Source of the DNA: a virus
IMG/VR virus record: IMGVR_UViG_3300021478_000114
Location: 1-22,813 of that record
Strand: one strand, 5' to 3'
Length of the DNA stretch: 22,813 nt
Below the pieces are notes generated by a model. It saw only the letters and a list, made by a program, of their open reading frames with translations, made no database searches and was not told the origin of the DNA. Shown in pieces: positions 8,852 to 13,007 of this stretch; within the stretch, counting starts at the first letter, position 1; every line of letters begins with the position of its first letter. The translations under genes were made by a program, and so were the position numbers.

Positions 8852-9307
8852 GTGACCACCCTAGCGAAAGTAAAGCTCCCGCAGCCTGAGTCTTTGATCC
8901 ACCAGACCATGGAGGATGCATTCCCAGATGTCGATCCAGGCGAGAAGCCGCTCGGCAGTCTCGTGCTCCTGCAGATCAAGCGGCCGGCGACTAAGACCAA
9001 GTCCGGCTTCCAGCTGTCTGGTTACGACATGGAGACCGAGTTCGACAACACGAAAATCGCCAAGGTGATTGCAATGGGGCGCCTAGCTTTCTGCAGCCGC
9101 ACCACGGGCGAGCAGTGGCCCGAGGGCGCCTGGGTGAAGGTGGGCGACTATATCCGCATCAGCCAGCACAATGTCGGCACCTGGACCATCCCGATGCCGG
9201 GCACGCGCGGCACGACGATTGAGGACCGCATTACCTTCGGCTTGATGGACGACCTGCAGTGCAAGAGCATCGTGGACGATCCCCTCAAGACAAAGGCCTT
9301 CTTTTAG
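8852..9307 (+). CDS. GroES-like co-chaperonin, 151 aa
   Basis: GTG 8852 with GAGGTAA upstream. From about residue 35 the layout follows the Cpn10/GroES barrel: GSLVLLQIKRPATKTKSGFQ, a mobile-loop-like stretch, KIAKVIAMG, a long insert (TTGEQWPEGAWVKVGDYIRI), and a closing strand. This insert with 'tGe.W.eG.w.kvGD' is what I know from phage-encoded co-chaperonins. Phage co-chaperonins (T4 gp31 type) replace host GroES so that GroEL can fold the capsid protein. Its place upstream of the scaffold and capsid genes fits that. The N-terminal 30 residues (KVKLPQPESLIHQTMEDAF) are an extension beyond classic GroES. The call rests on pattern alone. Confidence 0.75.
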   Translation: MTTLAKVKLPQPESLIHQTMEDAFPDVDPGEKPLGSLVLLQIKRPATKTKSGFQLSGYDMETEFDNTKIAKVIAMGRLAFCSRTTGEQWPEGAWVKVGDYIRISQHNVGTWTIPMPGTRGTTIEDRITFGLMDDLQCKSIVDDPLKTKAFF

Positions 9308-9316
9308 TGGTACAAT
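9287..9316 (+). promoter_or_regulatory. candidate sigma70-type promoter for the structured RNA region
   Basis: AAGACA (9287-9292) and TACAAT (9311-9316) are spaced by 18 bases, a fair -35/-10 pair. It straddles the stop of the co-chaperonin gene and would start transcription near 9322, just where the non-coding, hairpin-rich region begins. Not proven. Confidence 0.45.
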
Positions 9317-9568
9317 AGGATTATCGCTTAGAGTCGCAATCTAGCGCAGCTGGGGTGAGAGGCCCCTTCGTACAATCGCCTGGCGCTCCACAAACGTCCC
9401 CGCAAGGGGTAAAGCACTGAGCGGCGGCAACCCGGGAGAATGGCCTGGGCCGTTTCGGGCCGTGTCGTAAACGGTCCACCAATTCAGCAAGCGCAGGCAC
9501 TGCAGTGTACCAGCGGAGCTTCCGACAGACGGACGCCGTCTGGGATGCGATACCCAAGACACCCTCAT
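9317..9568 (+). ncRNA. unassigned structured RNA upstream of a tRNA-like element
   Basis: No credible coding frame is present on either strand, but there are many clean stems. AGCGCAG (9343-9349) pairs with CTGGCGCT (9380-9387) with one bulge, enclosing GGGG/CCCC. CCCC-GCAA-GGGG (9398-9409) has a GNRA tetraloop. A nine-base stem joins 9447-9455 to 9469-9477. CACTGCAGTG (9498-9507) is a palindrome. CGGA-gct-TCCG occupies 9514-9524, and a perfect seven-base stem (CAGACGG/CCGTCTG) occupies 9526-9542. A likely promoter lies just upstream and a tRNA-like unit just downstream. I could not match it to tmRNA, RNase P RNA or a group I intron. Possibly a phage regulatory RNA freed by tRNA processing. 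Confidence 0.4.
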
Positions 9569-9645
9569 AGCGGGGTAGACTGGATTGGCCCCAGCGTGGC
9601 CTCATAAGCCATCGAAGCGAGTTCGATTCTCGCCCATCGCTACCA
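9569..9645 (+). tRNA. tRNA-like element, anticodon CAU (Met or Ile2 type), slightly irregular
   Basis: A 77-base unit ending in encoded CCA (9643-9645). The anticodon arm is GTGGC-CTCATAA-GCCAT with CAT at 9603-9605. The T arm is perfect (GCGAG-TTCGATT-CTCGC, 9617-9633). The acceptor AGCGGGG pairs with the 3' side if one A (9636) is bulged and one G-T pair is allowed. The D arm is imperfect: it fits GACT with AG-C as if one base were missing, or else a shifted CTGG/CCAG stem. CAU could be initiator, elongator Met or, after lysidine modification, Ile2. The irregular arms mean it may be a diverged functional tRNA, a decaying one, or a tRNA mimic used for RNA processing. Confidence 0.6.
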
Positions 9646-9670
9646 TCACGGCTCCCTTGAATGGCGAGCA

Positions 9671-9693
9671 GCCGCCCGTTTCACCGTGGCGGC
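9671..9693 (+). other. GC-rich hairpin downstream of the tRNA-like element
   Basis: GCCGCC (9671-9676) pairs with GGCGGC (9688-9693) around an eleven-base loop. No T run follows (CTATTAAATAA instead), so it is not a clear terminator. It could be a processing or stability element. Confidence 0.35.
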
Positions 9694-9730
9694 CTATTAA
9701 ATAACGGGATACATCCACCAAGATGCCCAA

Positions 9731-9760
9731 TTCGGGCATAACCGAACCCATTCTGGGGTT
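9731..9760 (+). promoter_or_regulatory. two overlapping alternative hairpins just upstream of the scaffold gene
   Basis: TTCGG (9731-9735) pairs with CCGAA (9742-9746), and AACCC (9745-9749) pairs with GGGTT (9756-9760). They share two bases, so the stems compete. The ribosome site AAGGA (9768-9772) follows. This could be a switch or attenuator controlling scaffold expression. Confidence 0.35.
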
Positions 9761-9779
9761 CTATACCAAGGAAAACAAG

Positions 9780-10796
9780 ATGGGAACCATCCGCGAGACA
9801 GACGGCGACATTGACCGCGACCAGGACGACTCACGCATGCAGCAGCAGCGCGGCGCCGAGGAAGTCGAGGTAGAGCAAGAACAGCAAGAGCGCCAGGAGC
9901 CAGAGGTCGAGGTAGTCGAATCATCTGGCGACGACGAGCAGGGCGACGAACGCATTGCCCAGGGCGACGAAGAGGGCGGCCAGCGCGAGCAGCGCCGGGA
10001 AACCTCTGCAGAGCGCCGCAAGCGCGCCAAGGAAGCCAAGCTCCGCGATAAGCGCGAACTGGACTTCCAGAAACGCGAGCTTGACCGCCTCCAGCGCACC
10101 GTCTGGGACCTAACCCAGGGTCAAATTGCGACTCGCGTCACAGAATTAGATAATCGCATAACTTCGGCAGATGCCGAGGTTAAGCAGTGGGACCTGGTCA
10201 AAGCTAAGGCCATCACTGCCAAGAACGGCGAGGACGCGGTCGCCGCCGACAACCTGCGTTCCGCAGCGCAATTAAAGCTGGATCAGGCCCGCTGGGAAAA
10301 GCAGCGCATCGCCGACCAGCAGCGCCAGCCGGTCCAGGTCGACACTTCAGTCGAGGGCTTCAAGCAGCAATTCTTTGCTGATAATAAATGGTACAATCCC
10401 AATGGAGTCGACGAAGATTCCTTGATTGTCAAGGCCATCGACAACGCGGTCGCACAGCAGTACCGCCCCTCCGATCCAACGTACTGGGAAGAACTGCAGA
10501 AGCGCGTGAACGCCCGGTTAGGGAAGAACGTGCGCAAGAACAACGAAGCCGACGACTCCGACGACGAGGACGACGGCGAACAAGAAGTCCACCAGGAACG
10601 CCAACAGCGCCGGGGTGGCCCGCCGGTAGGCGGAAGTACCCGCAGCAACTCCACGGGCGGCGGCAGCAAGGTGCAAATCATGCTGTCCCCCGAGCGAGTG
10701 CAGGCCATGAAGGACGCAGGCTACTGGGATGACCCAGTGGTGCGCCAGAAGATGGCCAAGAAGTACTCAGAATACGACCGACAAAATCGCGGCTAA
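9780..10796 (+). CDS. putative scaffolding / capsid assembly protein, 338 aa
   Basis: I choose ATG 9780, seven bases after AAGGA, over an in-frame ATG at 9723 that has no ribosome site and lies in the hairpin region. Residues 1-80 are extremely acidic and Gln/Glu-rich (EEVEVEQEQQERQEPEVEVV). Then follow a basic helix (AERRKRAKEAKLRDKRELDF) and a long coiled coil to about residue 185. Next is a compact segment (GFKQQFFADNKWYNPNGVDE), another acidic linker, and a basic C-terminal helix. High charge, coiled coil and a position just ahead of the capsid protein are typical of scaffolds, which guide shell assembly and are then lost. No internal protease domain is seen. Call by composition and context. 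Confidence 0.7.
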   Translation: MGTIRETDGDIDRDQDDSRMQQQRGAEEVEVEQEQQERQEPEVEVVESSGDDEQGDERIAQGDEEGGQREQRRETSAERRKRAKEAKLRDKRELDFQKRELDRLQRTVWDLTQGQIATRVTELDNRITSADAEVKQWDLVKAKAITAKNGEDAVAADNLRSAAQLKLDQARWEKQRIADQQRQPVQVDTSVEGFKQQFFADNKWYNPNGVDEDSLIVKAIDNAVAQQYRPSDPTYWEELQKRVNARLGKNVRKNNEADDSDDEDDGEQEVHQERQQRRGGPPVGGSTRSNSTGGGSKVQIMLSPERVQAMKDAGYWDDPVVRQKMAKKYSEYDRQNRG

Positions 10797-12089: not shown

Positions 12090-13007
12090 ATGGCTGCCCC
12101 AATGCGAAGTACAGACTTCCGAAACATCGTTGAGCCAATTCTCAACGAGGAATTCGATGGAGTCTACGAACAGCGCGCGGACGAATGGAACCAGGTCTTC
12201 AAGCAGATCACCGGTATCCCCCGCTCGTTCCACGAAGAGCCAGTGCTTTACGGCTTCAGCGCCGCGCCGCTCCTCCCCGACGGTCAACCCGTTACCTACC
12301 AGGCTGGCGGACAGTTGTTCGTCTACCGGTACTTCTACCAGGTCTATGGTCTCGCCTTCGCGCTGACCAAGGTCCTCGTGGAAGACGGCGACCACATCCG
12401 TATCGGTCAAACCTACTCGCGCCACTTGGCGCAGAGCTTGATCGAGACCAAGGAAACCCTCTGTGCGAACATCATCAACCGGGCCTTCAACAGCTCGTTT
12501 GTCGGTGGCGACGGCGTGTCCTTGATCAACACGGCTCACCCGATCCAAAACGCGGGCTCGTTCTCGAACCAGCTCGCCACCGCCGCTGCCCTCAGCCAGA
12601 CGTCCCTGGAACAGATCCTGATCCAGATCCGCAACGCTGTCGACAACAACGGCAAGCGCATCCGCCTGGAGCCCAAGAAGCTCGTGGTCGCGCCGTCGAA
12701 CGTGTTCCAGTCCGAAGTGCTCCTCAAGAGCGTGCTCCGTACGGGTACCACGAACAACGACATCAACCCGATCAAGTCCATGGGCTTGCTCTCGGGTGGT
12801 CAAGCGAACCTGTCGCGTCTGACCTCGAATACGGCCTGGTTCGTCCAGACCGACGCCCCGGAAGGCCTGAAGCTCGTGCAACGTCGCACGCTGCAGAAGT
12901 CCATGGAAGGCGACTTCGAGACCGACTCGATGCGGTACAAAGCCACTGAGCGCTACGCGGTAGGTTGGACCGACCCGCGCGCCCTCTTCGGCACGCCGGG
13001 CCTGTAG
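12090..13007 (+). CDS. major capsid protein (HK97 fold, Mu-like), 305 aa
   Basis: Starts at ATG 12090 after a strong TAAGGAG site and ends in a double stop (TAGTAG). It forms the icosahedral shell. The N-terminal helix (RNIVEPILNEEFDGVYEQRA) is followed by the long spine and P-domain. Features typical of Mu-type capsid proteins are present: VSLINTAHPIQNAG, the helix LEQILIQIRNAVDNNGKRIR with EPKKLVVAPSNVFQ, and SNTAWFVQTDAPEGLKLVQR near the end. No N-terminal delta domain or maturation protease is visible, matching the use of a separate scaffold. Followed directly by a strong terminator, as expected for the most abundant virion protein. Confidence 0.9.
   Translation: MAAPMRSTDFRNIVEPILNEEFDGVYEQRADEWNQVFKQITGIPRSFHEEPVLYGFSAAPLLPDGQPVTYQAGGQLFVYRYFYQVYGLAFALTKVLVEDGDHIRIGQTYSRHLAQSLIETKETLCANIINRAFNSSFVGGDGVSLINTAHPIQNAGSFSNQLATAAALSQTSLEQILIQIRNAVDNNGKRIRLEPKKLVVAPSNVFQSEVLLKSVLRTGTTNNDINPIKSMGLLSGGQANLSRLTSNTAWFVQTDAPEGLKLVQRRTLQKSMEGDFETDSMRYKATERYAVGWTDPRALFGTPGL

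Follow-up and report, generated by a model that had tools for sequence, protein, structure and literature searches.

The GroES-scaffold junction of an environmental tailed phage as a probable accessory slot, filled by a non-coding insert with a divergent CAU tRNA-like gene

What occupies the non-coding DNA between the co-chaperonin and scaffold genes of this phage? The window, by which we mean the whole 22,813-nt stretch that was analysed, is a 22.8-kb IMG/VR record (IMGVR_UViG_3300021478_000114) representing the head and tail module of a tailed phage, with terminase, portal, small ORFs, a GroES-like gene, scaffold and capsid. An initial annotation read positions 9308-9650 as a densely structured RNA with its own promoter, possibly a new phage RNA family whose 3' end is set by tRNA processing, and proposed an Rfam search of the region. 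Our analysis favors a different answer. The GroES-scaffold gap is probably an accessory insertion slot, filled in the window by a 472-nt non-coding insert in which a divergent Met/Ile-type CAU tRNA with an encoded CCA is the sole recognizable gene (Table 1).

The nearest named relatives by terminase are the Caulobacter phages RW, RLK, KcrB and GB2A (44% amino acid identity), while the nearest relative by capsid protein is the record IMGVR_UViG_3300030737_000051, here L144 (95% amino acid identity). The capsid protein of the window (12090-13007) is 80-95% identical across relatives, versus about 30-48% for the neighboring GroES and scaffold proteins. An AAGGAA ribosome site, read from the sequence, precedes the likely scaffold start (ATG 9780).

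Table 1. Coordinates of features in the window and of filled GroES-scaffold slots in relatives
Feature	Coordinates	Strand	Basis or content
GroES-like co-chaperonin gene	8852..9307	+	Weak Pfam Cpn10 match, 16.8 bits; tblastn to annotated phage GroES; upstream border of slot
Sigma70-like promoter, AAGACA-18-TACAAT, TG before -10	9287..9316	+	Consensus match only
Non-coding accessory insert (probable), 472 nt, between GroES and scaffold	9308..9779	+	Negative codon scores in all frames; gap of about 12 nt in most relatives
CCCC-GCAA-GGGG hairpin, GNRA loop	9398..9409	+	Sequence; without conservation support
CCA-capped hairpin, 7-bp stem GGGCCGT/ACGGTCC, 7-nt loop GTCGTAA, then ACCA	9457..9481	+	Loop and ACCA context common only to L144:3185-3203
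Perfect 7-bp hairpin CAGACGG-ACG-CCGTCTG	9526..9542	+	Sequence; without conservation support
Divergent tRNA-like gene, anticodon CAU 9603-9605, encoded CCA 9643-9645	9569..9645	+	RF00005, phage model R1, cloverleaf pairs
Two hairpins directly 3' of tRNA	9651..9693	+	z -1.96; 8 of 200 shuffles as stable
Two perfect 6-bp hairpins just upstream of scaffold ribosome site	9723..9761	+	9716-9779 z -3.25; 1 of 200 shuffles as stable
Scaffold gene	9780..10796	+	tblastn to 34 IMG/VR loci adjoining GroES; downstream border of slot
Filled slot of relative	L062:3294-3593		Tad2-like
Filled slot of relative	L146:3437-3748		Tad2-like
Filled slot of relative	L151:2767-3749		Tad2-like; gp49/66
Filled slot of relative	L210:2899-3731		Tad2-like; gp49/66
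Filled slot of relative	L149:2689-3760		Acb2/Tad1 hairpin and RyR-domain; gp49/66
Filled slot of relative	L158:2642-3297		Acb2/Tad1 hairpin and RyR-domain
Filled slot of relative	L152:3381-3773		gp49/66
Filled slot of relative	L221:1732-2100		gp49/66

The absence of a credible coding frame, as claimed in the initial annotation, was borne out. Codon scores across 9308-9722 ranged from -0.29 to -0.62 bits per codon in all six frames, against a reference of +0.09 to +0.44 bits per codon for the GroES gene and small ORFs of the window, and six-frame read-through translations of the insert had no PHROG match. A hidden or decayed protein gene was rejected on these two results. An antisense ORF of 94 aa (9321-9605) was also rejected; it has no Pfam match and its codon score lies inside the range of antisense controls. 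The region is thus non-coding as described, but the insert extends past 9650 as far as 9779, the base preceding the likely scaffold ATG.

Evidence on the nature of the insert comes from the same junction in other phages. Among 121 distinct relatives having both genes, the GroES-scaffold gap is about 12 nt in nearly all. Gaps larger than 150 nt were found in 11, of which nine were judged real; the other two, in L154 and L183, are frame artefacts in which the GroES match itself spans the supposed gap. Protein genes fill eight of the nine slots (Table 1). The ninth, in L144, holds a cluster of tRNA-Met, -Pro and -Asn, scoring 63.7-70.5 bits, and two tRNA-like genes of low score, namely a tRNA-Trp (29.7 bits) and one further, very weak unit (17.1 bits). 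The cargo thus varies between constant neighbors, and we read the junction as an accessory insertion slot because nine relatives carry differing cargo, including the tRNA cluster of L144, and nearly all others are empty. Given this cargo and the L144 cluster, the window insert is best read as a reduced, divergent tRNA version.

Several of the protein genes in the slot belong to families that act against host immunity. Phages use Tad1, Tad2 and Acb2 as sponges that take up immune signals (PMC12043709); their RyR-domain proteins degrade or sequester Thoeris signals (PMC13232231). The unassigned small genes in the slot of relatives are candidates for counter-defence genes. In L151:2767-3288 and L210:2899-3387, the Tad2-like domain is fused to a preceding N-terminal segment, conserved and roughly 75 residues long, with no Pfam match, and L144:2407-2919, between GroES and the tRNA cluster, contains three small ORFs (57, 60 and 54 aa), also with no Pfam match.

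The tRNA-like element with CAU and CCA noticed in the initial annotation is real. It scored 25.9 bits with RF00005 (E 3.5e-5 for the window), short of the curated cut-off of 29 bits, and 33.4 bits (E 5.7e-8) with model R1, built from six tRNAs of related phages, for which the next best place in the window scored 10.7 bits. ARAGORN reported no tRNA here at default and tRNA-Met(cat) at 9569-9645 with relaxed settings. All 21 cloverleaf pairs are standard, the four stems are complete, and the T-loop UUCGAUU, the 7-nt anticodon loop CUCAUAA, A73 and the encoded CCA are present. Spacing departs from the canonical form at a bulged A9636 in the acceptor stem and at linker 9576-9579 (UAGA), which is 4 nt versus the usual 2; because these two usual features fail, we call the gene tRNA-like. 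An alternative fold that is not a cloverleaf is favored by 2.1 kcal/mol. Comparison with ten phage tRNAs placed the gene nearest to Met tRNAs from two relatives. It most likely works as a tRNA, but it could be a decaying gene. An Ile2-type CAU tRNA would read AUA, which accounts for 27 of 5197 codons in the phage genes (AUG, 107), and since AUA is this rare, codon supply alone is a weak motive for carrying it.

The Rfam search matched tRNA alone; no other family was found at E<=5. This agrees with the earlier view that the RNA is not tmRNA, RNase P RNA or a group I intron. Riboswitches were likewise rejected on this ground, and tmRNA, permuted forms included, was rejected because the tRNA unit is unbroken and has an anticodon arm of its own, and because RF00023 and its relatives were unmatched at the same threshold. 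No further tRNA above 7 bits was hidden in 9308-9566 in an unfiltered search with the phage tRNA model.

The remainder of the insert upstream of the tRNA-like gene was examined for a promoter, structure and homologues. The sigma70 hexamers are present as first described (AAGACA 9287-9292 and TACAAT 9311-9316, 18-nt spacer), with 9 of 12 consensus matches and an upstream TG. About 0.9 sites of such quality are expected by chance per 3 kb, so that the site is weak evidence alone; the L144 tRNA cluster opens with a similar 9/12 TG site. The stems named in the initial annotation (9447-9455/9469-9477, together with the GNRA and perfect 7-bp hairpins of Table 1) were also found where they had been placed. 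The dense structure claimed for the region was not. The folding energy of 9308-9650 gave z = -1.03, with 14 of 100 shuffles as good, and its halves fold no better than shuffles (9308-9450, z = 0.05; 9420-9568, z = 0.33), so that 9308-9566 shows none of the excess stability looked for in a conserved structured non-coding RNA. Stems of at least 7 bp number six in the claimed region, against a shuffle mean of 2.4 (8 of 200 shuffles reach six), and five of the six are overlapping alternatives inside one GGGCCG repeat. Nor does the region stand out when folding is scanned along the whole record in 379 windows, each of 120 nt.

Homologue searches for the upstream part were negative throughout. The search of 50,697 phage records gave no homologue, its only matches being to stretches of tRNA with E values no better than 0.4. 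The upstream 260 nt had no homologue in 72,556 plasmids, where one match covers the tRNA part only, and none among the more than 100 relatives fetched. Exact-motif scans of IMG/VR returned only a chance coding match in L142/L143. A 23-mer with 91% identity in L030/L034 lies on the opposite strand just after a start codon region and was judged a chance match, and when the upstream part was aligned locally with L144 or RW, the result stayed inside the shuffle range. An alignable homologue of 9308-9566 on which covariation could be counted was not found in the searches made.

One element upstream may nevertheless be new, and it is the sole part of the 260 nt for which this can be said. The CCA-capped hairpin at 9457-9481 has its loop and cap in common with L144:3185-3203, and its GGGCCG...GGTCCACCA frame recurs only at L144:3294-3314. 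Both strands of relatives' sequence totalling about 3 Mb contain 1826 distinct CCA-capped hairpins of this kind, and no other carries the loop GTCGTAA. The pattern was defined after being seen and rests on two phages, and we therefore treat it as a lead rather than a finding. It is conceivable, though highly improbable, that some phages of the group make short CCA-capped hairpin RNAs (a 7-nt loop GUCGUAA or similar, a stem and ACCA) beside their tRNAs. Such minimal tRNA mimics, lacking a cloverleaf, could become charged, act as traps for enzymes that process or cut tRNAs, or serve as a decoy against defence.

These results bear on three other explanations of the insert. If 9308-9566 were a new structured phage RNA with the tRNA unit serving only as its 3' processing site, a non-coding segment with a promoter-like site at its start would be expected, and this was observed. 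The loop GTCGTAA and ACCA that its CCA-capped hairpin has in common with the L144 spacer would also fit, as identical loops occurred in 0 of 4000 pairs of shuffled inserts. However, folding is no better than in shuffles, no sequence homologue appeared in phages, plasmids, relatives or the IMG/VR motif scans, and the common hairpin was noted post hoc in only two phages. We consider this reading distinctly unlikely. The proposal of a new, densely structured RNA family was not upheld either, given the ordinary stability upstream of the tRNA, the negative homologue searches and an ordinary tRNA cluster in the L144 slot. Decay of a tRNA cluster or insert, leaving a pseudogene and a functionless upstream leftover, is unlikely, though it would account for the Rfam score below cut-off, the indels in acceptor and linker, one tRNA versus four to five in L144 and an upstream part lacking excess structure or homology. 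Random decay is not expected to keep 21 pairs, both loops and the CCA intact, and phage genomes tend to shed useless DNA.

The third explanation concerns the DNA downstream of the tRNA-like gene. The leader at 9646-9779, with four hairpins, is the clearly over-stable part of the insert (z -2.84, 0 of 200 shuffles as stable), and once the tRNA has been excised it may protect the scaffold-capsid message or regulate it. The hairpins of significant stability, at 9651-9761, immediately precede the scaffold ribosome site. They could mean that the whole insert acts in cis on the scaffold-capsid operon, as a leader or a regulatory region, with the tRNA as a processing signal between low (GroES) and high (scaffold, capsid) expression. 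This is very unlikely, since the two genes lie about 12 nt apart without a leader in nearly all relatives and the L144 scaffold leader is weakly stable (z -1.29).

Under the preferred reading, an accessory slot with tRNA cargo, a sequence of events can be proposed. The transcript would probably start at the promoter-like site around the GroES stop codon, arise by read-through of the late operon, or both. RNase P would cleave on the 5' side of A9569, and trimming from the 3' end would halt at the CCA ending at 9645, releasing the tRNA; the 3' end of the non-coding RNA is thus probably set by tRNA processing, as the initial annotation had suggested. With the tRNA removed, the late mRNA would be split into a GroES and a scaffold message. 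The scaffold-capsid message would gain a new 5' end, which the hairpins at 9651-9761 may cap and protect. Once charged, the tRNA might top up or replace a host tRNA during infection, possibly against tRNA-cutting host defences. Its position in a slot that holds counter-defence cargo in relatives fits such a role in host-tRNA replacement.

The RNA of the insert is mostly ordinary phage cargo, its tRNA part being known in kind, and the slot is the more useful discovery. At this junction, a widespread environmental phage group swaps tRNAs for sponges and enzymes against Thoeris and CBASS signals. This swapping fits the idea that phage tRNAs are themselves counter-defence cargo and marks the slot as a place to seek new counter-defence genes.

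The closest known parallel is the slot of L144, which has the same neighbors, non-coding DNA that follows a promoter-like TG -10 site, a tRNA-Met(CAU), low-scoring tRNA-like genes and CCA-capped hairpins. It differs in that ARAGORN calls four tRNAs there at default, versus none in the window, and in that three small ORFs precede its cluster; its upstream and spacer sequences are not alignable with the window. The related Caulobacter phages RW, RLK, KcrB and GB2A carry about 380 nt of non-coding DNA in the terminase-portal gap, with a tRNA-Val of 26.7 bits, which likewise misses the Rfam cut-off, and additional hairpins resembling T arms. In RW (L050:275-653) the tRNA-Val is accompanied by two such hairpins in tandem, GGGGTTCGATCCCC and CTGGTTCGACTCCAG. 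Unlike the window insert, these regions occupy another genome position, encode another isotype and have no sequence similarity to it. With regard to function, the tRNA-Tyr of phage T5 counters retron-Eco7, a tRNA-cutting defence (PMC11555353), and replacement by phage tRNAs of host tRNA lost to such defences has been proposed generally (PMC10264068). The window gene differs from the T5 case in its anticodon, CAU, and in that its counter-defence role is a proposal. It resembles that case in presenting a phage tRNA, possibly with its own promoter, in a slot where relatives hold counter-defence genes.
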